DNA of 64,000 bases from Archangium primigenium (GTDB lineage Bacteria; Myxococcota; Myxococcia; Myxococcales; Myxococcaceae), in NCBI RefSeq assembly GCF_016904885.1, contig NZ_JADWYI010000001.1, forward strand, positions 8,489,224 to 8,553,223. Direction: 5' to 3'. Positions 2,231 to 63,765 of this stretch are shown here, piece by piece. Each line of letters begins with the position of its first letter. Position 1 is the first letter of the stretch. The translations under genes were made by a program, and so were the position numbers. Below the pieces are notes generated by a model. It had not been told where the DNA came from. It searched no databases and worked only from the letters and a program-made list of their open reading frames with translations.

Positions 2231-5200
2231 GTGAAACGCATTCCTTCCCTGTTCGTGCTGGCGTCGTGCCTGCTCGCGGCCTGCGGCCCCCCCTCCTCTT
2301 CGGGGAATGAGGCCTCTTTCGCGGTTCACGAGGCCGCCCTCGAGGTGAAGCTCGGCACGGGCCCGGCCCCGCTCATCGCGCCCGATGTGCCCAGCTTGAG
2401 CTTTCCCACCCAGCGGGTGTGCGGCACGGGCACCGAGCTGACGCTCACGGTGTTCAACGATGACGCCACGGACGCGCGCACCCTCCTCTTCACCGAGACC
2501 TCCGACCCGTTCGCCGTGACGGACATCCGGGATGAAGACGGCACGGCGCGGACCCTGCCCTTCAGCCTGGGGGCCCAGAAGCGGATGAGCTTCCGGGTGA
2601 AGTTCAATCCCCGGGCCCCCGCTTCCTTCAACGGCCAGCTCCAGATCTTCAGCGACGACTCCGTGAGGTCCACCCTCCGGATCGCCTTGTCGGGCACGGG
2701 CACCGGTCCGCATCTCGAACTGAACCCGACCTCGCTCGTCCTGAGCGGGTCCCCCGGCACGCAATCTGGTCCTCGTTCGGCGCTCCTGTTCTCGGCCGAC
2801 GACGCGGGCACGGATGACGCGGGCACCCCGGCGGATGCCGGCACGGATGACGCCGGCACGGACGACGCGGGCACCCCGGCGGACGCCGGCACGGGCGATG
2901 GCGGAGTCGCGGACACCTCGTTCCGTCGCACGGTGACGCTGACGAACCGGGGCACGGAGCGGCTGACCTCGCTCGCCCTCAGCTCCGCCAGCCCCGCGTT
3001 CACCGCCTCGCTTTCGAAGACCGCGCTGGAGCCTGGGGAGAGCGCGAGCCTGGTGGTGACCTTCGCCCCGCCCGCGGCCTCCAGCGCCGCGTTCTTCACG
3101 GACACGCTGCTCATCACCAGCGACGATCCGTGCTCGCCGGCGCTCCAGCTTCCGCTCTCGGGCTTTCGCGCGGCCGGAGCGGCGCCCACGCTCAACCCCA
3201 CCCAGCTCTCCTTCGCCGACCAGGACGTGGGCACGCTCAGCGCCACCCAGACCGTGACCCTCACCAACGAGGGCGCGGCCCAGCTCACCGTCGACTCCGT
3301 CTCGCTCCAGGGCGCATCGGATTCCGCCTCGCAGTTCATCGTGAGCCCCCAGAGCGGGTTCGTCCTTCAGCCGGGACACCAGCGCAGCCTGTCGGTGCGG
3401 TTCAACCCCACCACCGCCGGTGACAAGCTGGCCACGCTCCAGCTCATCCAGGGCGGCGCGGCGCTGACGCCCACGACGCAGCTCAGCGGCAAGGCCGTGC
3501 AGGCGCCCCTGCTCCAGCTCACGCCCCAGTCGCTCGTGTTCCCGAAGCAGCGCCCGGGAGCGGTGACGCAACAGACGGTCACCGTCGAGAACCCCGGCTC
3601 CGTGTCCCTCCAGTTCTCCGCCGCGCTCGCGCCCTCCACGCCCGCGGGCTTCGATTTCGAGCCCAAGGGCACCTTCACCCTCGCGCCCCATGCCACCCAG
3701 CAGGTGACCGTCACCCTGGCCCCCGCCAGCACCGCCGTCTCGGGGCCCGTGCTCGGCCAGCTCGCCTTCACCAGCCGTGACACCGTGACGTCCAGCACGC
3801 GTGAGACGCCCCTGCCCCTGCAAGGCGAGGTGGTGCGCACCCGCATCGTGCTCTCCACCGCGACGGTGTCGTTCGCCGACCAGGTCGTGGGTGCCACGCC
3901 CCAGATACGGGGGCTGGTCCTGCAAAACCCCACGGACCTGCCCATCAAGGTGTACGCCGTGGTTCCCGGCACGCTCGGGCCCTTCGCCCTCCAGAGCGGC
4001 GACCTGCCCGTGGACATCCCCGCCCATGGGGCCCACGGCCTCACCCTGTCCTTCGATCCGACCAGCCGTCAGCAGTGGGATGCCACCCTGCGCCTCACCA
4101 GCGACGCCACCGAGCCCATCGCGCCCGTGGCGCTCAGTGGCAAGGCCCTGGCCCCCGTGTTGAGCATCACCGACCCCGTGTCCCAGCTCCTGGACTTCGG
4201 TCCCCGGGCACCGGGCAGCGAGACCCCCCGGAGCGTGACCCTGAAGAACACGGGCGACGCGGACCTCGTCCTGACCCGGACCTCGCTCCTGGCGGACTTC
4301 CGGCTCCAGGGGCTCAGCCTGCCGCGCACCGTGGCGCCCAATGACACCGTCACGTTCCAGGTCGTCTTCGCCCCCACCAGCCTCGGGGACAAGACGGAGA
4401 GCCTCCAGTTCCATCTGGGCGGGTCCAGCACCCCGCTCGCCTCGCCGCAGCTCCCACTGCGCGGCAAGGGCTCCGGCGCCACTCCCGCGATGAGCCCCGC
4501 CCTGGTCGCCTTCGTCGACCAGGAGGTGGGCACGATCAGCGCCGCCCAGGGTGTGAGCATCACCAACTCGGGCGCTGCCCCGCTCATCGTCGACACCCTC
4601 GCCATCCAGGGGCCGTCGGACTCCGGCTCGCAGTTCACCGTGATCCCCACGACCGGCTTCGTGCTGGAGCCCGGGCACCAGCGCGACGTGTTGGTGAAGT
4701 TCAACCCCTCCACCGCCGGCGACAAGCAGGCCACGCTCCAACTCATCCACAACGGCACGGCCCTGGCCGCCAGCACCCGCCTCACGGGCAGGGGCGTGCA
4801 GGCGCCCCTGCTCCAGCTCACGCCGCAGTCGCTCGTGTTCGCGAAGCAGCGCCCGGGCCAGGTGGGGCAGCAGACCCTGACCCTCGAGAATCCCGGCTCC
4901 GTGTCCGTCCAGGTCACCGCCGCCCTGGATGCCTCCACCCCCGCGGGCTTCGACTTCGAGCCCAAGAGCACCTTCACCCTCGCGCCCCATGCCACCCAGC
5001 AGGTGACGGTCACCCTGGCCCCCGCCAGCGGCGCCGCCTCGGGACCGCTGCTCGGCCAGCTCACCGTGACCAGCCGTGACTCCACCTCCCCCATGTCCCG
5101 GCAGATTCCCGTGCCGCTGCGGGGCGAGGTGGTGCGCACCCGCGTCGAGCTCTCCACCCCGCTCCTGTCGTTCGCCGACCAGGTGGTGGGCAGCACGCCC

Positions 5201-8200
5201 CAGGCCCAGGAGCTCGTCCTGACCAACCCCACGGCGCTGCCCGTCCGGGTGTACGCCGTGGTTCCCGGCACGCTCGGGCCCTACGCCATCAAGAGCGGCG
5301 ACCTGCCCGTGGACATCCCCGCCAACGACTCCCGAGGCATCACCGTCTCTTTCGACCCGACCAGCCGCCAGCAGTGGGAGGCCACCCTGCGCCTCACCAG
5401 TGACGCCACCGAGGCCATCGCGCCGGTGCGGCTCACCGGCAAGGCGCTCGCGCCGGTGGTGTCCATCACCGACCCCGTGTCGCTGGAGCTGGACTTCGAC
5501 CTCCAGGCGCCGGGCAGCACGACCCGCCGGAGCGTGGCCCTGAAGAACACGGGTGATGCGGACCTCGTCCTGACCCGGACCTCGATCCTGGCGGACTTCC
5601 GGCTCCAGGGCCTCAACCCGCCGCGCACCCTGGTGCCCAACGAGACCGTCACGTTCGACGTCCTCTTCACCCCCACCAGCGTCGGGAACAAGATGGAGGA
5701 GCTCCAGTTCTACCTGGGCGCGTCCAGCACGCCCCTCCCGTCTCCGCGGCTCACCCTCCGGGGAAGAGCGGTCGGCGCCACCCCCGCGATGAGCCCCGCC
5801 CTGCTCGCCTTCGCCGACCAGGAGGTCGGCTCGGTCAGCACGCCCCAGACCGTGACCGTCAGCAACCAGGGCGCGGCGGCGCTCACCGTCGATTCGCTCT
5901 CCCTCCAGAGCACCGACACCACGGCCCAGTTCACCGTGAGCCCGAGCGGCGGCTTCGTCCTGGCGCCGTCGGAGCAGCGCGCCCTGTCCGTGCGCTTCAA
6001 CCCCACCACCGCCGGTGACAAGCAGGCCCTGCTCCAGCTCGTCAGCAACGGCACGACCCTGACCCCCTCCACCCGGCTCACGGGCAAGGCCGTGTTGCCC
6101 CCCCTGCTCCAGCTCACGCCGCAGGCGCTCACGTTCCCCAAGCAGCGCCCGGGCGTGGTGGCGCAGCAGACGGTCACGGTCGAGAACCCCGGCTCCGTGT
6201 CCCTCCAGGTCACCGCCACGCTGAGCGCCTCCACCCCCGCGGCCTTCGACTTCGAGCCCAAGAGCACCTTCACCCTCGCGCCCCATGCCACCCAGCAGGT
6301 GACCGTCACCCTGGCGCCCGCGAGCAGTGCCTCCTCGGGCGTGCTCAACGGCCAGCTCACCTTGACCAGCCGCGACCTCGCGTCCTCCTCGACCCGGCAG
6401 GGCTTCGTGCCGCTGCAGGGCGAGGTGGTGCGCACGCGCGTCGAGCCCTCCACCACGACGGTGTCGTTCACCGACCAGGTGGTGGGCGGCACGCCCCAGG
6501 CCCAGGGACTCGTGCTGCGCAACCCCACCGCCCTGCCCGTCCGGGTGCACGCCGTGGCCGCCGGCACGCTCGGGCCCTACGCCATCAAGGCCGGGGACCT
6601 GCCCGTGGACATCCCCGCCCACGACACGAAGAGCATCACCCTCTTCTTCGACCCGGCCAGCCGCCAGCAGTGGGAGACCACGCTGCAGCTCACCAGTGAC
6701 GCCACCGAGGCCATCGCGCCGGTGCGGCTCACCGGCAGGGCGCTCGCGCCGGTGCTGACCGTCACCGACCCCGTGTCCTCGAGCCTGGACTTCGGCCTCC
6801 ATGCGCCGGGCAGCGAGACCCGCCAGAACGTCACGGTGAAGAACACGGGCGACGCGGACCTGGTCCTGACCCGGCACTCCACGCTGACGGACTTCAAGGT
6901 GGAGGGGCTCAACCCGCCGCGCACCCTGGTGCCCAACGACACCGTCACCTTCGAGGTGGTCTTCGCCCCCACGAGCGCGGGAAGCAAGGGCGAGACGCTC
7001 CAGTTCTACGTGGGCGCGTCCAGCACGCCCCTCACGACGCCGCGGCTCACCTTGAGCGGCAGGGCGGCCGGCGCCGTCCCGGCGATGACGCCCGCGCTGC
7101 TCGCCTTCGGCAACCAGGAGGTGGGCACGACCAGCGCGACCCAGACCGTGACCGTCAGCAACCAGGGCGCGGCGCCCCTCGTCGTCGACTCGCTCTCGCT
7201 CCAAAGCACCGACAGCACGGCCCAGTTCATCGTGAGCCCGAGCGGTGGCTTCATCCTGGCGCCGTCGGCGCAGCGTGTCCTGTCGGTGCGCTTCAACCCC
7301 ACGTCCTTCGGAGACAAGCAGGCCACGCTCCAGCTCATCCGCGACGGCACGGCCCTGGCCACCACCACCCGCTTCACGGGCACGGGCGTGCAAGCCCCCC
7401 TGCTCCAGCTCACGCCCCACGCGCTCACGTTCCCCAAGCAGCGTCCAGGGGAGGTGACCCAGCAGACGGTCAGCATCGAGAACCCCGGCCTCGTGTCGTT
7501 GGATGTCACCGCCGCGGTGGCCGCGACGGGTGCGTCCACCGCCTTCGACTTCGAGCCCAAGGGCACCTTCACCCTCGGGCCCGGCGGCAAGCAGCAGATG
7601 ACCGTCACGCTGAAGCCCGCCACCACCGCCGCCTCGGGGCTCCTGCTCGGGCAGCTCAACGTGACGGGACGTGATTCGCAGGCCAACACGTCGCGGCAGG
7701 CCACCCTGCCCTTGCAGGGCGAGGTGGTGCGCACGCGCGTCGAGCCCTCCACCACGACGGTGTCGTTCACCGACCAGGTGGTGGGCAGCACGCCCCAAGC
7801 CCAGGGGCTCGTGCTGCGCAACCCCACCGCCCTGCCCGTCCGGGTGTACACCGTGGCCGCCGGCACGCTCGGCCCCTACTCCGTCAAGGCCGGGGACCTG
7901 CCCGTGGACATCCCCGCCAACGACGCGAAGAGCATCACCCTCTACTTCGACCCGGTCAGCCGCCAGCCGTGGGAGACCACGCTGCGGCTCACCAGCGACG
8001 CCACCGAGGCCGTCGCGCCGGTGCGGCTCGTGGGCACGGCGCTCGCGCCCGTGTTGACCGTCATCGACCCCGTGGGACTGAACGTGGACTTCGGACCCCA
8101 GGCCCTGGGGACCGAGACGCCGCGGAGCGTGACGTTGAAGAACACGGGCGACGCGGAGCTCACCCTGGCGCGCACCTCCACGATGGAGAACTACAAGGTC

Positions 8201-10873
8201 CAGGGGCTCAACCCGCCGCGCACCGTGGCGCCCAACGCCACCGTCACGTTCGAAGTCGTCTTCGCGCCCACGAGCCTCGGCTTGAAGGAGGAGAGCCTCC
8301 AGTTCTACGTGGGGACGCCCGGCACGCTCTTGCCCTCTCCGCAGATCAAACTGAGTGGAACGGCCTCCGGCCCCTCCGCCACGGTCTCGGGGGACCTCGA
8401 CTACAGGGCCCAGCGCATCAACGAGCCCACCTCCCGCAAGCTGCGCATCAGCAACGACCGGCTCGCCCCCGAGACGCTCGAGATCGTCAGCATCACCATC
8501 AAGGACAAGACCGTGGAGTTTTCCCTGGGCGGCTCCTACACGGGCCAGAAGGCGGGCCCGGGCGAGTTCCTCGACATCGAGGTCATCTTCCGCCCCACCA
8601 TCGTGGACAGGACGTCCACGGACTCCCTGCGCATCGAGTACAAGGGAACCCTGACCGGGGTGCCCGTCACGCGGTTCGTTCCGCTCAGCGGTGTGGGCGC
8701 GACCGCGCTGCTGGACGTGGAGTCGATCCTGTCCTTCGGCGATGTGGAGCTCAATCAGGCCAAGAGCTTGAGCCTCACCCTCACCAACAAGGGCAAGTCT
8801 CCCTTGCGGCTCAACAGCCTCGAGGGACTCACGGGCAGCGCCTTCCTGCTGGGGCAGATCAACTGGCCTCGGGAAGTGCCGCCGGATGGCACGGAAGTCA
8901 TCTCCATCACCTTCGCGCCCAACCGGCTGGATGCCGTCACCGCGGATCTCGTCATCGCGTCCAACGCGACGAGCAGCAACGTCACGGCGGGCAAGACGAC
9001 CATCCGGCTGTCTGGCCGAGGCGCCGCCGCCAAGGCGCTCTTCGAGCCCACGACGCTCGTGGTGGAGAACACGCCCCTGGGACAGACGGGCCTGGGCAGG
9101 CTGCGGGTGTCCAACGTGGGCTCCTCGCCCCTGAGGATCAACAAGGTCAATCCCAGCCCCCACTTCCGGGTCCGCGCGCCCGCGGGGGACTGGCCCGTGG
9201 TCATCGACATCAAGGACAAGGATGCCACCCAGTACAAGTATTACGACTTCGTGATCGAGTTCCACCCGGATGCCTTGCCCAAGGTCTCGGAGACGCTCGT
9301 CTTTCCGAGCAATGACTCCCTCTTCCCCCTCACGTCGGTCACCGTCGAGGGCGCGGGCTCCAAGCCCAAGCTGGTCGTGGACTCGGTCCTGCTCTTCGAC
9401 AAGGTGGCGCTCAACCCGGGAGGAACGGGCTACCAGGCCATGATCCGCAATCTCCAGGTGAAGAACGAGGGCACCGCGCCGCTCGTCATCCGCAGCCTCC
9501 AGCTCAGCAGCCACTTCTGCGTCAAATTGACCCTGAGTGGGGACTGCATCGAGCGGACGCTCCCCGACTTCGCGGGCATCACGCTGCTGCCCAACGAAGC
9601 GCAACTGCTCCAGGTGCAGGTGACGCCCACGAGCGAGAAGATGTCGGGCTCGCTCAGCCTCTCCACCAACGAGGAGTCGGCCGACGGCTTCACCAAGACC
9701 GTGGCCTTGCTCGTCGGCGTGGATGGGGTGTCCGTCCCCACCGAGACCGTGGAGTTCGGCACCTGTGACATGAACAAGCTGCCCACCACGCTCGTGGAGA
9801 AGGGCGTGGGCGTGACCAACACGGCGGAGGCCGAGGACTCCATCACCTCGGTCACCTTCTCGGAGGCGGACGCGCTCGACTTCTCCGTGGTGAACGTGAC
9901 CGCCTCCACCCCGCTCAAGGTCCCGGGCCGGGGCGGCGTGGAGCTGAAGCTGGCCTTCAAGCCCCGGATTGGCGCGGCGGGCACGCGCACGGCCACGGCC
10001 CACCTCTACACGCGCACCGGAAAGAAGCTCGAGCTCAAGCTCAAGGGCGTGGCCACGGGACTGTTCTCCGGCTTCAAGGACTTCGCGTGGGAGGTGGACT
10101 TCGGCACCCAGCGCCTGTCCGAGCCGAAGCCGCCCGTGCGCTTCCCGCTGCACAACCAGCTCGACCGGTCCATCTTCGTCAAGCGCGTCTGGGTGGACGG
10201 CGCCCAGAAGGAGGACTTCACCGCCGCGGCGGATGGCGGTGGGACGTGCCGGACGGTGGGCACGACGCAGGAGATTGAAATCCGCATGGGCGAGACGTGC
10301 GAGCTGCTGCTCACCTACGCGGCCCGGCGCGTCACCCTGTCGTCGGCGGTGCTGGTGCTGGAGCTGGCCACGAGCACGAGCACCAGCGCGGAGCAGCCTC
10401 CGGCCGCCCGCGTCGCGCTCAAGGGCGAGATGGTCTCCAGCGTGCTGCTCGTGGATCCGATGGAGGTGGACTTCGGCTGGGTGGACCTGGGCCAGACGAT
10501 CGAGCCCAGGGAGATCACCCTCACCAACCAGTCCCGCACGGGCACGCGGGTGCTCATCCCGGAGGTCACGCACCCCGAGCTCTTCACGGTGGAAGCGCTC
10601 GAGCCGGGCAAGGAGCTGCCGCCCGGGGGCACCACGCGGCTGCGCGTGACGTTCCACCCCAGCGCGGCGGGAGACAGCACGGGCGAGCTCCAGCTCCGGC
10701 TGCAGGGGGACAACGCGACGGACGTCACCGTCGGGCTGCGCGGGCAGGTGCGGGCCTTCGGCGGAGAAGGCGGCGGGAGCTACGGCTGCGGGGCCACGGG
10801 CGGCGGACACCTGGCCGGGGCCTGGCTGCTCCTGATGGCCCTGGGCCTGCGCTACCGGTCGCGGCGCGGCTGA
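2231..10873 (+). CDS. Giant lipoprotein of repeated ASH-type (choice-of-anchor D) domains with a MYXO-CTERM-like tail
   Basis: 2880 residues, GTG start. Residues 1-19 form a lipoprotein signal (FVLASCLLAAC). An Asp-Ala-Gly-Thr-rich linker lies near residues 190-225. Most of the rest is a string of ~100-residue immunoglobulin-like modules of the ASPM/SPD-2/Hydin (choice-of-anchor D) type, with the recurring phrases LxFxDQxVG, xQTVTVxNxG and VxFxPxxxG. From about nt 3182 to 8370 a ~432-residue block of four such modules is repeated four times. The C-terminus has Gly-Cys-Gly, a hydrophobic helix (AGAWLLLMALGL) and a basic end (RYRSRRG), as in MYXO-CTERM sorting tails. A cell-surface scaffold or adhesin role is inferred; no catalytic motif is seen. 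Confidence 0.85.
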   Translation: MKRIPSLFVLASCLLAACGPPSSSGNEASFAVHEAALEVKLGTGPAPLIAPDVPSLSFPTQRVCGTGTELTLTVFNDDATDARTLLFTETSDPFAVTDIRDEDGTARTLPFSLGAQKRMSFRVKFNPRAPASFNGQLQIFSDDSVRSTLRIALSGTGTGPHLELNPTSLVLSGSPGTQSGPRSALLFSADDAGTDDAGTPADAGTDDAGTDDAGTPADAGTGDGGVADTSFRRTVTLTNRGTERLTSLALSSASPAFTASLSKTALEPGESASLVVTFAPPAASSAAFFTDTLLITSDDPCSPALQLPLSGFRAAGAAPTLNPTQLSFADQDVGTLSATQTVTLTNEGAAQLTVDSVSLQGASDSASQFIVSPQSGFVLQPGHQRSLSVRFNPTTAGDKLATLQLIQGGAALTPTTQLSGKAVQAPLLQLTPQSLVFPKQRPGAVTQQTVTVENPGSVSLQFSAALAPSTPAGFDFEPKGTFTLAPHATQQVTVTLAPASTAVSGPVLGQLAFTSRDTVTSSTRETPLPLQGEVVRTRIVLSTATVSFADQVVGATPQIRGLVLQNPTDLPIKVYAVVPGTLGPFALQSGDLPVDIPAHGAHGLTLSFDPTSRQQWDATLRLTSDATEPIAPVALSGKALAPVLSITDPVSQLLDFGPRAPGSETPRSVTLKNTGDADLVLTRTSLLADFRLQGLSLPRTVAPNDTVTFQVVFAPTSLGDKTESLQFHLGGSSTPLASPQLPLRGKGSGATPAMSPALVAFVDQEVGTISAAQGVSITNSGAAPLIVDTLAIQGPSDSGSQFTVIPTTGFVLEPGHQRDVLVKFNPSTAGDKQATLQLIHNGTALAASTRLTGRGVQAPLLQLTPQSLVFAKQRPGQVGQQTLTLENPGSVSVQVTAALDASTPAGFDFEPKSTFTLAPHATQQVTVTLAPASGAASGPLLGQLTVTSRDSTSPMSRQIPVPLRGEVVRTRVELSTPLLSFADQVVGSTPQAQELVLTNPTALPVRVYAVVPGTLGPYAIKSGDLPVDIPANDSRGITVSFDPTSRQQWEATLRLTSDATEAIAPVRLTGKALAPVVSITDPVSLELDFDLQAPGSTTRRSVALKNTGDADLVLTRTSILADFRLQGLNPPRTLVPNETVTFDVLFTPTSVGNKMEELQFYLGASSTPLPSPRLTLRGRAVGATPAMSPALLAFADQEVGSVSTPQTVTVSNQGAAALTVDSLSLQSTDTTAQFTVSPSGGFVLAPSEQRALSVRFNPTTAGDKQALLQLVSNGTTLTPSTRLTGKAVLPPLLQLTPQALTFPKQRPGVVAQQTVTVENPGSVSLQVTATLSASTPAAFDFEPKSTFTLAPHATQQVTVTLAPASSASSGVLNGQLTLTSRDLASSSTRQGFVPLQGEVVRTRVEPSTTTVSFTDQVVGGTPQAQGLVLRNPTALPVRVHAVAAGTLGPYAIKAGDLPVDIPAHDTKSITLFFDPASRQQWETTLQLTSDATEAIAPVRLTGRALAPVLTVTDPVSSSLDFGLHAPGSETRQNVTVKNTGDADLVLTRHSTLTDFKVEGLNPPRTLVPNDTVTFEVVFAPTSAGSKGETLQFYVGASSTPLTTPRLTLSGRAAGAVPAMTPALLAFGNQEVGTTSATQTVTVSNQGAAPLVVDSLSLQSTDSTAQFIVSPSGGFILAPSAQRVLSVRFNPTSFGDKQATLQLIRDGTALATTTRFTGTGVQAPLLQLTPHALTFPKQRPGEVTQQTVSIENPGLVSLDVTAAVAATGASTAFDFEPKGTFTLGPGGKQQMTVTLKPATTAASGLLLGQLNVTGRDSQANTSRQATLPLQGEVVRTRVEPSTTTVSFTDQVVGSTPQAQGLVLRNPTALPVRVYTVAAGTLGPYSVKAGDLPVDIPANDAKSITLYFDPVSRQPWETTLRLTSDATEAVAPVRLVGTALAPVLTVIDPVGLNVDFGPQALGTETPRSVTLKNTGDAELTLARTSTMENYKVQGLNPPRTVAPNATVTFEVVFAPTSLGLKEESLQFYVGTPGTLLPSPQIKLSGTASGPSATVSGDLDYRAQRINEPTSRKLRISNDRLAPETLEIVSITIKDKTVEFSLGGSYTGQKAGPGEFLDIEVIFRPTIVDRTSTDSLRIEYKGTLTGVPVTRFVPLSGVGATALLDVESILSFGDVELNQAKSLSLTLTNKGKSPLRLNSLEGLTGSAFLLGQINWPREVPPDGTEVISITFAPNRLDAVTADLVIASNATSSNVTAGKTTIRLSGRGAAAKALFEPTTLVVENTPLGQTGLGRLRVSNVGSSPLRINKVNPSPHFRVRAPAGDWPVVIDIKDKDATQYKYYDFVIEFHPDALPKVSETLVFPSNDSLFPLTSVTVEGAGSKPKLVVDSVLLFDKVALNPGGTGYQAMIRNLQVKNEGTAPLVIRSLQLSSHFCVKLTLSGDCIERTLPDFAGITLLPNEAQLLQVQVTPTSEKMSGSLSLSTNEESADGFTKTVALLVGVDGVSVPTETVEFGTCDMNKLPTTLVEKGVGVTNTAEAEDSITSVTFSEADALDFSVVNVTASTPLKVPGRGGVELKLAFKPRIGAAGTRTATAHLYTRTGKKLELKLKGVATGLFSGFKDFAWEVDFGTQRLSEPKPPVRFPLHNQLDRSIFVKRVWVDGAQKEDFTAAADGGGTCRTVGTTQEIEIRMGETCELLLTYAARRVTLSSAVLVLELATSTSTSAEQPPAARVALKGEMVSSVLLVDPMEVDFGWVDLGQTIEPREITLTNQSRTGTRVLIPEVTHPELFTVEALEPGKELPPGGTTRLRVTFHPSAAGDSTGELQLRLQGDNATDVTVGLRGQVRAFGGEGGGSYGCGATGGGHLAGAWLLLMALGLRYRSRRG

Positions 10874-56791: not shown

Positions 56792-58813
56792 ATGACCCGA
56801 AACCCGTTGGTTCCGTTGTCTTTAATGTCCCTGCTGTCCCTCGCGCCCGGCTGCCAGCCGGTGGACGAGAGCGTGCCCGACGCGCAGCCCGTGGCCCCGG
56901 CCGCGGTGGAGCAGAAGGCGGCGGTGGCGGGCTTCGCCGAGTTGCACCACCACATGTTCGCCGAGGCGGCGTTTGGCGGCGGGTGGTTTCATGGCAGCCA
57001 CACGGGTGAGTTGACGAGCTGCGATGGCGGCATGCCCGAGAGCAGCCATGCCCGGGTGCGCATGGACCTGAGCAACATGCTCAACCTGTGCCCCAACTCG
57101 GGCGCGGTGAACCTGGGCGGCGTGCCCATCCTCAGCTCCCTGTTCGGCGTGGGCGGCGCGGTGGCCTCGGAGTTCATCGGGAAGATCGAGGGCACCGAGG
57201 GTGACACCGGCCTGCACCTGGGCCGCAAGCAGGTCCAGACCCAGTGGCCGCGCTGGGACACCATCGCCCACCAGCAGGCCTTCGAGGGCTCCCTGCGCCA
57301 GGCGCACCTGGGCGGCCTGTCGCTCGTGACGGTGTCCCTGGTGAGCAACGGCTTCCTGTGCAGCGCCCTGCCCTACCAGAACCTCAAGCGCCCCTGCGAC
57401 GAGATGGCCGACGTCGAGGTGCAGATTCAAATGGCCAAGGACTTCGACGCGCGCACGTCCTGGGCGGAGATCGCCCTGTCGCCCGCGCATGCCCGGCAGA
57501 TCATCGCCTCGGGCAAGCTCGCGATGGTGCTCTCCATCGAGGTGAGCAAGCTGTTCGGCACCAAGGACTGGCGCTCGGAGCTCAACCGCTTCCACGCCCT
57601 GGGCGTGCGCTCGCTCCAGCCCGTGCACCAGCTGGACAACCGCTTCGGCGGCGCGGCGCTGCACAACATCATCTTCCAGGCCGCCCAGTTCCTGGAGAAC
57701 TGCCACATCGACTACGACTGCGGCGCCACGGGCGCGGGCTTCACGCTCGGCTTCGACGTGGACGCCAACTGCCGCAACGTCAAGGGCCTCACCCCCGACG
57801 GCAAGGCGCTGGTGCAGGAGCTCATGGCCAAGGGGATGCTCATCGACATGGCGCACATGTCCGAGCGCGCCGTCGAGGACACGGTCGCCCTGACGCGCTC
57901 CAACACCTACTACCCGGTCTACATCTCCCACGGCCACTTCCGCGAGGTGATGAACCCGGACGTCGCGGACGCCGAGAAGTCCACGCCCGCCCACATCGTG
58001 CGCTACCTGCGCCAGTCCGGCGGCATCTTCGGCCTGCGCACCGCGCATGACGAGACGCGCGACTACACGCGCACGCCCATCGCCAACTCCTGCCAGGGCT
58101 CCACGCGCTCCTTCGCCCAGGCGTACGAGTTCGGCCGCCAGGGGCTCAAGGTGCCCATGGCCTTCGGCGCGGACCTCAACGGCTTCATCCAGCAGACGCG
58201 GCCGCGCTTCGGCTCCTACGGCGCGTGCTCGGCGGGCTTCAAGGCCGAGGCGGATGCCCAGGCCGCCCAGCAGCGCGTGTCCGGCCCGCCGCGGCTGGGC
58301 ACCGACTTCGACACGTACGGGCTCGCGCACGTGGGCCTGCTGCCCGACCTGCTGCGGGATCTCAAGCAGCTGGGCGCCAACACCACGGGCCTGGAGGGCT
58401 CGTCCGAGGTCTTCCTGCGCATGTGGGAGCGCGCGCAGTCCACGCGCGCGGGCATGGTGGACGCGGCGGCGGACATCGACACCGGCGGCGTGGCGGCGTA
58501 CGTGCCCAAGGCCACCCGGGAGGCCCAGTACCCCCAGGTGTGCGGCAAGGCGTACGCCCCCAACTCCAAGGTGCTCGGCGAGGTGTGCCGCTTCAACGAG
58601 GAGTGCGTGAGCGCCAAGTGCACCTCGTCCGACTGCGGCAAGGTCACCGGCACCTGCATCTGCGATGGCGACAACGACTGCGGCGCCCAGCAGTACTGCG
58701 GCTGGGGCCTCAACCTGGGCGCCTGCCAGAACAAGAAGGCCCGGGGCGCCATCTGCTCGGCGAACAACGAGTGCCTGTCGAACAACTGCCGCTGGTCGTA
58801 CACCTGCGGCTGA
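56792..58813 (+). CDS. Secreted M19-like (membrane dipeptidase family) hydrolase with Cys-rich tail
   Basis: 673 residues. AGGAG precedes the ATG at 56792. A lipoprotein signal ends in SLAPGC. The TIM-barrel metal ligands resemble M19 dipeptidases: HHH near the start (AELHHHMFAEAAFGG, in place of the usual D-x-H-x-D), Glu in MVLSIEVSKLFG, His in LIDMAHMSERAVED, His in YISHGHF, and Asp in AFGADLNGF. The last ~80 residues form a Dickkopf-like Cys-rich module (EVCRFNEECVSAKCTSSDCG, CDGDNDCGAQQYCGWG), common on myxobacterial secreted proteins. It lies 161 bp before the lanthipeptide precursor on the same strand, so a role in trimming that peptide is possible but unproven. Confidence 0.78.
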   Translation: MTRNPLVPLSLMSLLSLAPGCQPVDESVPDAQPVAPAAVEQKAAVAGFAELHHHMFAEAAFGGGWFHGSHTGELTSCDGGMPESSHARVRMDLSNMLNLCPNSGAVNLGGVPILSSLFGVGGAVASEFIGKIEGTEGDTGLHLGRKQVQTQWPRWDTIAHQQAFEGSLRQAHLGGLSLVTVSLVSNGFLCSALPYQNLKRPCDEMADVEVQIQMAKDFDARTSWAEIALSPAHARQIIASGKLAMVLSIEVSKLFGTKDWRSELNRFHALGVRSLQPVHQLDNRFGGAALHNIIFQAAQFLENCHIDYDCGATGAGFTLGFDVDANCRNVKGLTPDGKALVQELMAKGMLIDMAHMSERAVEDTVALTRSNTYYPVYISHGHFREVMNPDVADAEKSTPAHIVRYLRQSGGIFGLRTAHDETRDYTRTPIANSCQGSTRSFAQAYEFGRQGLKVPMAFGADLNGFIQQTRPRFGSYGACSAGFKAEADAQAAQQRVSGPPRLGTDFDTYGLAHVGLLPDLLRDLKQLGANTTGLEGSSEVFLRMWERAQSTRAGMVDAAADIDTGGVAAYVPKATREAQYPQVCGKAYAPNSKVLGEVCRFNEECVSAKCTSSDCGKVTGTCICDGDNDCGAQQYCGWGLNLGACQNKKARGAICSANNECLSNNCRWSYTCG

Positions 58814-58974
58814 GCGGGCCACCCCGCGAGGAGGGGCGCACCGCCAGACGAGTCCTTGGCCCCACCGGGACCCGGACTTGGCGCGGGCGCCCCTGGCCAA
58901 CACCTTGAGCCACGAGGTGAACGAGCGGGAGATGGGCTCTCGCTCTCCTCACCTCAGTGGCAAGGGGGTCGGTC

Positions 58975-59076
58975 ATGAAACGCAAGGTACTCGCGTTGCA
59001 GCAGCTCGCTTCGAACGTCACGCAGCAGGAGGCCTGGCCACGCTCGGGTCTCAGCCTGCTGGCCTGTCTGGCCTAG
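58975..59076 (+). CDS. lanA: Class III lanthipeptide precursor peptide (single labionin/lanthionine ring)
   Basis: 33 residues, short enough to be missed by gene callers. AAGGGGG lies 6 nt before the ATG. Leader: MKRKVLALQQLASNV, with the V-L-A-L-Q box found in class III leaders (compare LFDLQ or ILELQ), then TQQEAWP. Core: RSGLSLLACLA, in which Ser24, Ser27 and Cys31 form S-x2-S-x3-C, the labionin/lanthionine motif; the S-x-x-S-L-L-x-C phrase also occurs in SapB (RamS) and AmfS. The chain ends two residues after the Cys. The LanKC gene follows after 94 bp. I see no second precursor nearby. Confidence 0.82.
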   Translation: MKRKVLALQQLASNVTQQEAWPRSGLSLLACLA

Positions 59077-59105
59077 CGGAGCCGCGCAGCTGTCACCGGG
59101 AGGGT

Positions 59106-59137
59106 CACGGACACCGGGCACACCCCCGGGCCCCGTG
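59106..59137 (+). terminator. Nested hairpin between lanA and lanKC
   Basis: CACGG/CCGTG (outer) and CCGGG/CCCGG (inner) stack, followed by GCCCTCCGTTTTATT. A leaky terminator would give more precursor than synthetase, as in other lantibiotic operons. Confidence 0.4.
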
Positions 59138-59170
59138 GCCCTCCGTTTTATTCGACGGGGGGAAACACGC

Positions 59171-61819
59171 ATGGAAGGCATTGAGCGCAGGGCGCACCGG
59201 GACCTCTATCTCTTCACCCTGCTGCATCCGGAGCGCTACGAGGGGTTGGATACCTACCGCTCCCGGCAGCCGGGCTTCGCGGAGCTGCTCGCGCCCCTGC
59301 TGCCCGAGGGCTGGCGGGCGGCCCCGCGCGGCATCTGGTACCACGTGCTGCCCCCGGACAACCGCACGCCCGTCTCCGGCTTCAAGCTCCACCTGTCCTC
59401 CGTGCCCGAGCAGGCCCAGGCCCTGGTGACCGCCGTGGTGCCGGTGCTGCTCGCCGAGGGGGTCGCCTTCAAGCTCCTGGTCGACGCGGCCATGCTCGAC
59501 CTGGGCAACTCCAGCCTGAGCTCCGGCGGCGGCTGCGGGAAGTTCATCACCGTCTACCCCCAGGACCTGGACCAGTTCCGGCGGCTGCTCGAGCGCCTGG
59601 AGCCAGTGACCCGGGGCTTCGTGGGCCCCTACATCCTCTCGGACCGGCCGTACCGGGACAGCAAGGTGCTCTTCTACCGCCACGGCACCTTCCACGCGCC
59701 CCACGAGGTCAACCTCCAGGGCGAGCCCGAGACGTGCCCGCTCGGCCCCGATGGCCGACGCGTGGAGGATCCCCGCCTGCCCTACTTCACCCTGCCCGAC
59801 GGGGTGAGCGATCCGTTCCCCGAGGCGCCCGGCGCGGAGGACGAGGACGACGCGCTCCACCACCGCTACCAACCCCTCTCCGTCCTGGGCACGTCGAGCA
59901 AGGGCGGCGTCTACCTCTGCCAGGACCTCCAGACGGGGCGGGAGGTGGTGGTCAAGGAAGCGCGGCCCCACGTCAACCGGGGCCGGCATCAGCCCCATGA
60001 CGCCGTGGCCTGCCTGGAGAACGAGCGCCGCGTCCTGCGGCGCCTGGAGGGCACGGACGCGGCGCCCCGGGTGCTGGACGCGTTCCAGGAGTGGGAACAC
60101 CACTTCCTCGTCATGGAGCGCGCCCCGGGCATGAGCCTGCCCCGGCTGCTGGCGCGCAATGCCCTCGGGCTCGTGCTGGAGGGCCGTCCCACGGCCGACC
60201 AGTTGAGGACCTTCGCGCGGACCTTCACGCACCTGGCCCGTCAGCTCGCGGCCCACGTGCGGGCCATCCACGCCCGGGGCGTGGTCATCCGGGACCTCGC
60301 GCCCCAGAACATCCTCTTCGACCCGGAGAGCGGCCGGGTGACGCTCATCGACTTCGAGTCCGCGTACTGCGAGCACGCGGACGTCGCCAGCCCGCTCATT
60401 CCCCTGGCCACGCCCGGCTTCGGCCTGGACCCGCACGACCCGCGCAACCGCGACGCGCCCACGCGCGAGCAGGACCTGCGCGCCCTGGGCCGGGTCCTGG
60501 GGGAGCTCTTCCACCCGGTGGCCCCGTTCTTCGCGCTCGCCCCCGAGCGTCGGGAGCCCCTGCTCGCGCACTTCGCCCGGGAGCGCGGCATCCCCGAGGT
60601 GTTCGTCCAGCTCGCCCTGGCCGCCGAGGAGCCCGTCCGCTTCGAGGCCCTGCTCGACGAGGCGGAGCGGACCGTGCCCCCCGCGCCCTCGCGCCCCCCG
60701 CCCCGGCTGGACGCGGCGACGCTCGGCGCGCGCATCGACGGCGCGGCGCGCTACCTCGAGGAGGAGATCGCGCATGAAGCGGACCCGCTCGGCCTGCCCA
60801 CCGACTACCGGCGCTGCGTGACCAACCGGCTGGGCGTGGCTTACGGGGCGGCGGGCATCGCCCTGGCGCTCCATCGTCTGCGCGGCGCGGTGCCCGAGCG
60901 ATTCCTCACGGCGCTCCGGGACGAGGCGGCGCGCGCGGACCATGCGCACTACCCTCCGGGGCTGTACGTGGGCCTGGCGGGCATCGCCTGGAGCCTGTTG
61001 GAACTGGGCCAGCACGAGGCGGCCGAGCGGCTGCTGGCCACGGGCGCGGCGTCTCCGCTGCTCGGCCAGGGCGCGGACCTGTTCTACGGCGACGCGGGCT
61101 GGGGACTCGCCCAGCTCTTCTTCCACCAGCGGCTGGGGGACGCCCGCTACCTGCACGCGGCCCGGGAGGCCGCCGTGCGCATCGACGCGATGCTGGAGCA
61201 GGGCCCCGCGGGACCGCACTACCGCAACCGGGGCGACGTCTACTGCGGCCTGGCCCACGGGAGCGCGGGCATCGGCTACTTCCTCTTGCGGCTCTCCGAG
61301 GCCACCGGCGAGCCCGGCTGGCTCGAGCGGGCACGGGCCCTGCTCGACCATGACCTGGGCCGGGGACAGGAGCGCGACGGCGCGCTGTGCTTCCAGCGCT
61401 CGGAGGGCGAGCAGGTCCTCTACCCCTACTGGGCCATGGGGGGCGCGGGCCTGGGCGCGCTCGCGCTGCGCTTCCACGCGGTGACGGGCGAGCCGCGCTA
61501 CCTCGAGGCCGCCCGGCGCATCGCGCGGGACTTGCGCGGCCAGTACACCGTCTTCCCCTCGCACTTCTACGGCATGGCGGGCCTGGGCCACTTCTTCGTG
61601 GACCTGCACCAGCACACCGGCGAGGCCGAGGCGCGCGAGGAGGCCCTGCGCTTCGGCGAGCGCGCGCTGCTCTACGCCATCGACCGACCCACGGGCTGGG
61701 TGTCCCCGGGCGAGGGCCTCCTGCGCGTGTCGGCCGACTACGCCACGGGCTCGGCCGGCCTGGGCGTGTTCCTCCACCGACTCCGAGTGGGCGGCGGCGT
61801 GCCCTTCCTCGACTTTTGA
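59171..61819 (+). CDS. lanKC: Class III lanthionine synthetase LanKC
   Basis: 882 residues from the ATG at 59171, behind GGGGGGAAA. Three parts in order. (1) ~1-230: lyase domain for phospho-Ser/Thr elimination (LYLFTLLHPERYEGLDTY...GGGCGKFITVYP). (2) ~230-510: Ser/Thr kinase, with Gly-rich GTSSKGGVYL, Lys262 (VVVKEARP), Asp375 (VIRDLAPQNILF) and Asp394 (LIDFESAY). (3) ~520-882: LanC-like cyclase with GLAHGSAGIGY (His696). The LanC zinc Cys are absent: the WCxG-type site reads WAMGGAG and the CHG-type site reads FYGMAG, which marks class III rather than class IV. It modifies the adjacent 33-residue precursor. No transporter or dedicated peptidase lies next to it. Confidence 0.92.
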   Translation: MEGIERRAHRDLYLFTLLHPERYEGLDTYRSRQPGFAELLAPLLPEGWRAAPRGIWYHVLPPDNRTPVSGFKLHLSSVPEQAQALVTAVVPVLLAEGVAFKLLVDAAMLDLGNSSLSSGGGCGKFITVYPQDLDQFRRLLERLEPVTRGFVGPYILSDRPYRDSKVLFYRHGTFHAPHEVNLQGEPETCPLGPDGRRVEDPRLPYFTLPDGVSDPFPEAPGAEDEDDALHHRYQPLSVLGTSSKGGVYLCQDLQTGREVVVKEARPHVNRGRHQPHDAVACLENERRVLRRLEGTDAAPRVLDAFQEWEHHFLVMERAPGMSLPRLLARNALGLVLEGRPTADQLRTFARTFTHLARQLAAHVRAIHARGVVIRDLAPQNILFDPESGRVTLIDFESAYCEHADVASPLIPLATPGFGLDPHDPRNRDAPTREQDLRALGRVLGELFHPVAPFFALAPERREPLLAHFARERGIPEVFVQLALAAEEPVRFEALLDEAERTVPPAPSRPPPRLDAATLGARIDGAARYLEEEIAHEADPLGLPTDYRRCVTNRLGVAYGAAGIALALHRLRGAVPERFLTALRDEAARADHAHYPPGLYVGLAGIAWSLLELGQHEAAERLLATGAASPLLGQGADLFYGDAGWGLAQLFFHQRLGDARYLHAAREAAVRIDAMLEQGPAGPHYRNRGDVYCGLAHGSAGIGYFLLRLSEATGEPGWLERARALLDHDLGRGQERDGALCFQRSEGEQVLYPYWAMGGAGLGALALRFHAVTGEPRYLEAARRIARDLRGQYTVFPSHFYGMAGLGHFFVDLHQHTGEAEAREEALRFGERALLYAIDRPTGWVSPGEGLLRVSADYATGSAGLGVFLHRLRVGGGVPFLDF

Positions 61820-61917
61820 TGGGGCCACCAACGTCCACTTCCGGATAGACACGATTCAATTAGTAAAATTGCACAAAGTGGCCAGCGTCCGAGGGCGGAA
61901 CGACGCCGTGCGCCATT

Positions 61918-61963
61918 GCTTTTACAAAGCGAAGCCAGAAAGGTAGCCGAACCTTTTACAAGG
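61918..61963 (+). promoter_or_regulatory. Twin palindromes GCTTT-TAC-AAAGC and CCTT-TTAC-AAGG in the pckG leader
   Basis: The copies at 61918-61930 and 61952-61963 share CTTTTACAA and lie ~34 bp apart. The second includes most of the AAGGAG ribosome site. They may be operators or an RNA element. Confidence 0.42.
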
Positions 61964-61971
61964 AGATGGAC

Positions 61972-63765
61972 ATGGCCTCGCTCCAGAACCAAGGGATCCA
62001 GGACAACGCTCCCACGAAGAACCCGGAGTTGATGGCCTGGGTCTCGAAGATGGCCCGGCTCACGCAGCCGGACCGGATCGTGTGGTGTGACGGTTCGCAG
62101 GAAGAGAAGGAGCGCCTGACGGCGCAGGCGGTGGCGGAGGGCATCCTCATCCCGCTCAACCCGGAGAAGCGGCCGGGCTGCTACCTGCACCGCTCCAACC
62201 CCAATGACGTGGCGCGGGTGGAGCACCTCACCTTCATCTGCACGACGAACAAGGAGGACGCCGGGCCCACCAACAACTGGATGGAGCCCGAGGCGGCGTA
62301 CACCAAGCTCACCCACCTGTTCTCCGGCAGCATGCAGGGCCGCACGATGTACGTGGTGCCCTACATCATGGGCCCGCCGGGCAGCCCCTTCGCCAAGGTG
62401 GGCGTGGAGCTGACGGACAGCATCTACGTGGCGCTCAACATGCGCATCATGACGCGCATGGGGCGCGCGGCGCTGGAGATGCTCGGGGACTCGGGCGACT
62501 TCAACCGCGGCCTGCACAGCACGGGGGACCTGAACCCGGACCGCCGCTACATCTGCCACTTCCCCCAGGACAACACCATCTGGAGCTTCGGCAGCGGCTA
62601 TGGCGGCAACGTGCTGCTGGGCAAGAAGTGCCTGGCGCTGCGCATCGGCAGCTACCTGGGGCAGGACGAGGGCTGGCTCGCCGAGCACATGCTCATCCTC
62701 GGGGTGACGAGCCCCAAGGGCGAGACGACGTACGTGGCGGCGGCGTTCCCCTCCGCGTGCGGCAAGACGAACTTCGCCATGATGATTCCGCCCAAGGAGT
62801 ACGCGGGCTGGAAGGTGGAGACGATCGGGGACGACATCGCGTGGATGCGCGTGGGTCCGGACGGCCGGCTGTGGGCCATCAACCCCGAGGCGGGCTACTT
62901 CGGCGTGGCCCCGGGCACCAACCACAAGAGCAACCCCAACGCCATGGCCACCGTGTCGCGCGACACGCTCTTCACCAACGTGGCCCTGACGCCGGACGGC
63001 GACGTGTGGTGGGAGGGCATGGACGGCGAGGTGCCCGAGGAGCTCACCGACTGGCAGGGCCGGCCCTGGAAGAAGGGCAGCCCGGAGAAGGCCGCGCACC
63101 CCAACAGCCGCTTCACCGCGCCCATGGCCAACAACCCCGTGTTGAGCGCCAAGGCGAACGACCCCATGGGCGTGCCCATCTCCGCCATCATCTTCGGCGG
63201 GCGGCGCTCCACCACGGTGCCGCTCGTGCTCCAGGCCTTCAACTGGACCCACGGCGTGTTCCTGGGCGCCACCATGGGCAGCGAGACCACGGCCGCGGCC
63301 ACCGGCAAGGTGGGCGTGGTGCGGCGCGACCCCATGGCCATGCTGCCCTTCTGCGGCTACCACATGGGTGACTACCTCCAGCACTGGCTGGACATGCAGA
63401 AGGCCATCTCCCACCCGCCGAAGATCTTCCAGGTCAACTGGTTCCGCCAGGACAAGAACGGCAAGTTCATCTGGCCGGGCTTCGGGGAGAACATGCGCGT
63501 GCTGGAGTGGATCGTGAACCGGGTGCACGGCCGCGTGCCCACCGAGGAGACGCTGCTCGGCTGGGTGCCCCGCGCCGACCAGGGCCTCAACACCCAGGGC
63601 CTGGACCTGTCGCGCGAGGCGCTCGCCGACGTCACCTCCATCCGCACCGATGAGTGGCGCGCCGAGCTCAAGAGCCAGGAGACCTTCTTCGAGTCGCTCG
63701 GGACCAAGGCCCCCGAGGCCCTGATGCTCCAGCGCAAGCTGCTCATCTCGCGCCTGGAGAGCTGA
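61972..63765 (+). CDS. pckG: Phosphoenolpyruvate carboxykinase (GTP)
   Basis: 597 residues. I use the ATG at 61972 because AAGGAG ends right before an in-frame ATG at 61966, leaving the correct 6-nt spacing only for the second. GTP-type PEPCK motifs: kinase-1a loop with the reactive Cys, [13 protein letters not shown]; metal-site strand [36 protein letters not shown]; and [12 protein letters not shown]. It converts oxaloacetate to PEP with GTP, the entry to gluconeogenesis, which fits growth on amino acids and lipids. It is followed by a terminator-like hairpin. Confidence 0.96.

Follow-up and report, generated by a model that had tools for sequence, protein, structure and literature searches.

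A two-gene class III lanthipeptide cassette with a one-ring precursor lies at different chromosomal sites in three myxobacterial genomes

What does a lanthipeptide locus of only two genes make, where does it end, and does its product act in fruiting-body development? These questions are raised by a 64,000-nt stretch of the Archangium primigenium genome (contig NZ_JADWYI010000001.1, positions 8,489,224 to 8,553,223; hereafter the window), in which a 33-codon precursor gene (lanA) precedes the gene of a class III lanthionine synthetase (lanKC; Table 1). A preliminary description had read the locus as a SapB/AmfS-like peptide reduced to one ring and, given the fruiting-body-forming lineage, had found a surface-active or morphogenetic role attractive. 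The locus is a discrete cassette of ~3.0 kb, which consists of ~150–170 bp of upstream sequence, lanA, a hairpin and lanKC, and which has different neighbours in each genome that carries it. We consider it probable that this self-contained class III cassette was acquired or relocated in one piece. Its product would then most likely be an accessory secreted hydrophobic peptide that serves signalling or competition and varies between strains, rather than a conserved structural morphogen.

The lanA product is MKRKVLALQQLASNVTQQEAWPRSGLSLLACLA. The leader contains V-L-A-L-Q at residues 5–9 and no double-glycine site, and the core contains a single S24-x2-S27-x3-C31 unit and ends two residues beyond the Cys. 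The leader box and the core had been described correctly, as had a 33-codon gene with an ideal ribosome site followed by a complete LanKC, with which the coordinates, the ribosome-binding site and the domain models agree. The frame is conserved upstream of the orthologous lanKC in two other genomes (G031 and G083), whose precursors, MKRKVLALQQLNPDKKHPQDQMPISALSLLLC and MKRKVLALQQLSSGKTQQESAVLGSALSLLLCHH, align with the window peptide in both leader and core; their ribosome-binding sites (GGAGGG and GAGGAGGG) lie at about the same place as that of the window. The leader MKRKVLALQQL is invariant in 3/3 one-ring precursors, and all the codons that differ among the first 11 are synonymous (4/4 against G031 and 3/3 against G083). 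The linker varies freely among the three peptides, all of which retain the ring unit as a single S-(G/A)-L-S-L-L-(A/L)-C; no Ser, Thr or Cys position other than the two core Ser and the Cys is common to them. Two residues follow the core Cys in the window and G083 precursors, and none in that of G031. A pattern that combines the leader box with S-x2-S-x3-C within an open reading frame (ORF) of 20–80 codons matches lanA alone in the window; 40 first-order Markov simulations of the window sequence gave 0 matches.

The window peptide scores 16.6 bits with the Pfam RamS model (cut-off 24.3) and is not listed by the NCBIfam SapB_AmfS model at E<=1; all three one-ring peptides fall below the cut-offs of every class III precursor model, these two included. 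The peptide had also been called unusually short, which is true in part only, as the class III precursor models span 33 to 44 positions and two more precursors of the family (L027 and L024) are also 33 aa long.

LanKC is intact and passes the NCBIfam class III LanKC model (738.7 bits, cut-off 575), while its score with the class IV LanL model (522.5 bits) is under the cut-off of 650. We place the start at ATG 59171, because M-x-GIERRA is conserved in 8/8 aligned clade members; a longer frame from GTG 59135 was rejected. The best match to the solved LanKC chains has an E value of 6.7e-63. The lyase residues K72, H74, K101, K124, D158, R170 and R202 sit at the catalytic positions of ThurKC, whose catalytically important lyase and kinase residues, as given in an excerpt of PMC10604976, served as the reference. 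The kinase residues K262, E285, D375, N380 and D394-F395-E396 are present. The cyclase reads PYWAMGGAG and SHFYGMAG at the positions where other LanC proteins carry Cys-containing Zn-binding motifs. Class III cyclases lack the Zn ligands (excerpts of PMC7268733 and PMC10604976). At the level of sequence, the domains, residues and precursor motifs confirm a class III lanthipeptide locus (LanA and LanKC) with one ring unit, and the proposed SapB/AmfS-like ring sequence is borne out by the core S-G-L-S-L-L-A-C.

By analogy with ThurKC, LanKC would bind the V-L-A-L-Q leader helix at the N-lobe of its kinase domain, which would phosphorylate Ser24 and Ser27; the RamC_N lyase domain would eliminate the phosphate from the phosphorylated serines, and the metal-free cyclase would close a single ring on Cys31. 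The expected product, which would contain either one labionin or lanthionine together with dehydroalanine, would in either case have lost two H2O and would retain the hydrophobic ring S-G-L-S-L-L-A-C plus Leu-Ala. According to an excerpt of PMC7268733, Sx2Sx3C yields lanthionine in some class III peptides and labionin in others. At the position of ThurKC Lys108, LanKC has Ser115 and the solved chain 8car has Ala; 8car, too, contains His696 of the AHG motif. We do not assign the ring type from the LanKC sequence, because an excerpt of PMC13380574 calls it difficult to predict from the synthetase.

The ends of the cassette are defined by blastn comparison with relatives that lack it. Similarity between the window and the congeners G002 and G001 ends at 58825 and 58827, respectively, and restarts at 61830, so that the cassette takes in 149 bp upstream of the lanA ATG and 10 bp downstream of the LanKC stop; the block common to the three one-ring loci starts <=5 bp from its left end. 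In G001 and G002, the M19 peptidase (84% identical) and PEPCK (90–91%) genes flank instead a gene for a 660-aa CitMHS/TrkA_C anion transporter (Pfam) on the opposite strand (L065, about 2700–4680; L066, 3521–5503, minus strand). The transporter gene also lies beside PEPCK in G003, where the best M19 match is on another contig. In G031, the cassette has a sigma-54 activator gene on one side and an AHSA1 gene on the other. These two genes are adjacent in G017 (98% and 94% identical, respectively); the unmatched sequence is 3,027 bp in G031 and 4 bp in G017. The corresponding lengths are 3,066 bp in G083 and 42 bp in its relative G082; similarity is lost ~166 bp upstream of lanA and returns ~27 bp beyond the LanKC stop codon. 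Thus, in three comparisons, the unit occupies different sites and relatives lack it between the same flanks. That one enzyme clade is found at three different sites requires relocation or repeated gain.

Apart from lanKC, blastp of the called genes revealed no neighbour common to the three loci (genes were called with a GC3 script, for which lanA is too short). No ABC transporter gene lies inside the cassette, and a strict ABC-signature regular expression, which is not a full annotation, has 0 matches in the examined flanks of the three loci, in agreement with the earlier statement that there is no dedicated transporter. Because the cassette limits enclose lanA and lanKC only, two genes and no transporter is a trait of the conserved unit. 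Since lanA and lanKC travel without other genes, leader removal and export would be carried out by host proteins encoded elsewhere in the genome.

The distribution of the cassette was examined in 96 genomes of the family, including that of the window (G000). The DNA leader pattern M-K/N-x-K/N-V-L-A-L-Q, which does not cover two-ring leaders, has one match each in G000 (its own), G031 and G083 and 0 in the other 93/96 genomes; a reversed control has 0 matches. Together with the LanKC search, it places the cassette in 3/96 genomes, and both searches find it absent from G017. LanKC proteins occur at E<=1e-60 in 17/96 genomes (21 loci), and 20/21 loci have a candidate precursor, which is downstream of LanKC in three; for L025, none was found within the 1.5-kb flank examined. 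In wider searches, in which the best few candidates per genome were scored, LanKC matches were found in 9/145 genomes of the order (E<=1e-150) and 11/195 of the phylum (E<=1e-120), and at these strict thresholds none of at least 50% identity occurs in either sample outside seven genomes, all of the same family.

A midpoint-rooted tree of 24 N-terminal LanKC sequences (21 family loci and three from other phyla, whose long branches were flagged) contains three family clades. Clade A comprises the one-ring trio, the two-ring trio of G001–G003 and the LanKCs of G082 and a second G083 locus (G083b). The one-ring LanKCs form a single clade (support 100/100), within which G031 pairs with G083, a member of the same genus (92/91), and which is sister to the two-ring LanKCs (93/90, just under the strong-support mark of the tool). 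The LanKC identity is 73% between the window and G031, 71% between the window and G083, and 79% between G031 and G083. The G082/G083b LanKCs branch outside both trios, with the precursor downstream of LanKC (MKKVLALQQLAPKSDFDPLSLSSLVSISCCKGTQPK), and their core also seems to be single-unit. Although the sister enzymes serve two-ring precursors, the apparently single unit of this outer branch keeps us from endorsing the claim that the peptide was reduced to one ring: either form may be ancestral, and the two-ring form may be the derived state. The clade A paralogue (L016 and L026, near 4308) has its precursor 3′ of LanKC and a Cys-Cys-ending ring unit, SLVSISCC.

From these sites and this distribution, we take it as likely that related myxobacteria acquired or relocated the unit whole. 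Several observations weigh against the favoured reading. The 3.0-kb unit contains no transposase or integrase gene, and inspection by eye, without a formal repeat search, found no obvious terminal repeats or target-site duplication at its ends; GGGCCACC occurs near both ends in the window genome only. The direction of change, gain or loss, is unproven at each site, and loss at some of them is possible. The tree tool flagged unusual composition in three rows, including the window LanKC. The counterpart of ThurKC Lys108 is Ser115 here and not Lys. The role in signalling or competition is a guess from the distribution. Finally, the window–G031 identity of LanKC (73%) is close to that of the neighbouring M19 peptidase (75%). 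We tentatively entertain a more specific version of the cassette reading, a nomadic minimal pair of the ribosomally synthesized and post-translationally modified peptide type, whose ~3.0 kb of promoter, 33-codon precursor, attenuating hairpin and LanKC would relocate between myxobacterial chromosome sites without mobility genes, function at any of them by borrowing the export and protease of the host and provide an exchangeable one-ring peptide for signalling or competition.

The similar identities of LanKC and M19 mean that old vertical inheritance plus relocation is possible, in which the locus would be not a mobile cassette but a family trait that rearrangements relocated and that most species have lost. 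The pairing of G031 with G083 in the tree is also expected from such a history. The cassette lies at three different sites, and for each of them a relative shares the flanks without it; this argues in the other direction, as does the G031–G083 comparison, in which LanKC is 79% identical and the two compared flanking genes are 89–90% identical. We regard this explanation as somewhat unlikely.

The morphogenetic role first proposed fares worse. A surface-active SapB/AmfS-like morphogen reduced to one ring is suggested by the ring sequence S-x-L-S-L-L-x-C, the hydrophobic core and the weak, below-cut-off RamS similarity, and by the two-ring precursor of the sister-clade genome G001, which passes both RamS (30.4, cut-off 24.3) and SapB_AmfS (26.1, cut-off 25). 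However, a core role in fruiting bodies is unlikely because the cassette is present in 3/96 genomes and is absent from G017, which is 92–95% DNA-identical to G031 around the site. With no linked gene common to the three loci and the ancestral ring number undecided, we judge a reduced morphogen improbable. A two-ring locus in decay, whose product is no longer made, would explain the shorter core and the two-ring sister clade, yet the 882-aa LanKC is intact with its catalytic residues, the first 11 leader codons change only synonymously and the ring unit is kept in three genomes, which leaves this reading very little room. A lipolanthine-like product, with the C-terminal Cys decarboxylated to form an avionin ring, would fit the single S-x2-S-x3-C and the terminal Cys of the G031 precursor but is scarcely credible given that the cassette holds no other gene and that two residues follow the Cys in the window and G083 precursors.

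Table 1. Features of the one-ring class III lanthipeptide locus, in window coordinates
Feature	Position	Strand	Basis
Cassette, 3,004 bp, replacing the CitMHS/TrkA_C transporter gene of G001/G002	58826..61829	+	blastn, Pfam
Upstream region with blocks common to three one-ring loci, probable promoter	58830..58974	+	MAFFT alignment; promoter role putative
Upstream blocks GGAGGG(R)CG.., CAACACCTT and CGGGAGATGGGCT	from 58830; 58898-58906; 58926-58938	+	MAFFT alignment
Ribosome-binding site AAGGGGG, 6 nt before lanA ATG	58962..58968	+	sequence
lanA, 33-codon class III lanthipeptide precursor	58975..59076 (ATG at 58975; stop codon ends 59076)	+	ORF, MAFFT alignment, genome pattern search
Leader box V-L-A-L-Q-Q-L, LanA residues 5-11, same in three one-ring precursors	58987..59007	+	alignment
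Core ring unit S24-G-L-S27-L-L-A-C31, predicted single lanthionine/labionin site	59044..59067	+	sequence; chemistry predicted
Hairpin between lanA and lanKC, 12-bp outer and 5-bp inner stem	59099..59144	+	folding, pair counts, terminator-like scan
lanKC, class III lanthionine synthetase, 882 aa, intact	59171..61819	+	Pfam, NCBIfam, alignments
RamC_N / phospho-Ser/Thr lyase domain, LanKC residues 42-226	59294..59848	+	Pfam
Pkinase domain (best Pfam stretch), LanKC residues 233-399	59867..60367	+	Pfam
LanC-like cyclase (LANC_like), LanKC residues 558-872, without Cys-containing Zn-binding motifs	60842..61786	+	Pfam, alignment

The conserved blocks upstream of lanA probably include the promoter. 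A sigma-54 promoter in the CAACACCTT block was rejected, as the GG/GC spacing is not conserved in the alignment, and a scan of 58700–62000 for sigma-70-type promoters found none. A hairpin between lanA and lanKC is predicted in 6/6 folded loci (three one-ring and three two-ring). In the one-ring loci, 97.2% of the 36 cells of the outer stem are paired, compared with 39–56% in slid controls, which supports the helix and not selection on it; covariation is weak, with one double change in three sequences and 178/500 shuffles equally good. The folding-energy z-scores are −1.4, −4.3 and −1.3 for the one-ring loci and −3.6, −2.5 and −2.5 for the two-ring loci. A T-run follows the hairpin in the window (59146–59149), and a terminator-like scan found 1 site with 0.9 expected. 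Because the hairpins of G031 and G083 are followed by no T-run, a general intrinsic terminator was rejected, and the hairpin, conserved in position, is probably a transcript-processing or attenuation element.

Other class III loci of the family differ in organization. A second locus in the window genome (L009; C1, about 6047–6055 kb) comprises a precursor (4279–4455), LanKC (4727–7519) and an ABC exporter with a C39 peptidase (7544–9790, minus strand), near which two HlyD proteins are encoded; the one-ring leader offers this exporter no double-glycine site. Its precursor has a bacteriocin-type double-glycine leader ahead of a class III LxLQ box (..ELEQVVGGAEVLALQGL..), a leader type that also occurs in L019 (G091) and L020 (G068); the sequence of these three leaders suggests two-step leader removal. 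Double-glycine leaders are mentioned for class III generally (excerpt of PMC7268733). In one myxobacterial LanKC clade, 7/8 loci are split (L014, L018, L022, L023, L024, L027 and L028) and L017 alone is fused; in the split loci, a stop about 490–506 residues beyond the start of the match ends the lyase-kinase part, and a separate ORF or frame encodes the cyclase. These are candidates for a naturally split class III synthetase. The reverse complement of L021 (1286–1411) encodes a precursor, MEQVLALQYFDDELELPDSDACTSSVSCTSTASCASHRSKT, beside LanKC, with weak, below-cut-off scores to thiocillin-type models.

With its ends defined, the cassette illustrates that a class III pathway can travel on very little DNA, namely a 33-codon gene and one enzyme, the host apparently being left to export the peptide and remove its leader. 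This minimal substrate–enzyme pair is convenient for studying which of the two rings, lanthionine or labionin, LanKC forms on a single S-x2-S-x3-C unit, and the sister enzymes that serve one-ring and two-ring precursors provide an evolutionary case. The peptide is also a trait in which genomes can differ even when they are very closely related. Automated annotation may miss one-ring precursors, because they fall under the current family cut-offs.

The nearest known systems are SapB (RamS/RamC) and AmfS of Streptomyces, which share a LanKC with a RamC_N domain and, as in the window peptide, a short leader with an L-x-L-Q-type box and the ring unit S-x-x-S-L-L-x-C. Their loci have an adjacent ABC transporter pair, whereas the window locus has no transporter, one ring unit and a precursor under the RamS cut-off. 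SapB and AmfS contain two lanthionine units (excerpt of PMC13380574). The two-ring class III loci of G001–G003 are closer, with LanKCs 51–52% identical to that of the window, an LALQ leader, a hairpin after lanA and a second ring unit of the SSGLSLLLC type, like the one-ring core; they differ in their site and in precursors of 50–51 aa with two units (S-x2-S-x3-C or S-x2-S-x4-C). Melittapeptins are presumably class II (LanM) products unrelated to LanKC. They are likewise myxobacterial lanthipeptides, according to a title in the reference list of PMC13380574. Among the matches listed in the literature, titles and abstract openings name no one-ring myxobacterial class III peptide, which is weak evidence of absence. 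Lipolanthine clusters carry decarboxylase and acyl biosynthesis genes, and the avionin and long acyl chain of lipolanthines need such extra genes, whereas the cassette holds lanA and lanKC only. One-ring class III chemistry is already known from lipolanthines (microvionin and nocaviogua), which are made by a class III-type synthetase and have one avionin macrocycle (excerpt of PMC10435860), and from andalusicin of Bacillus thuringiensis (ThurA1–ThurKC), a class III peptide with one labionin ring and a protease outside the cluster (excerpt of PMC10604976). Andalusicin differs in its 11 dehydrations, its methyltransferase and its more than one precursor, compared with only two conserved Ser in the window core. 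What seems to be new here is a one-ring SapB-like core encoded by a two-gene unit that has defined ends and is present at different chromosomal sites.

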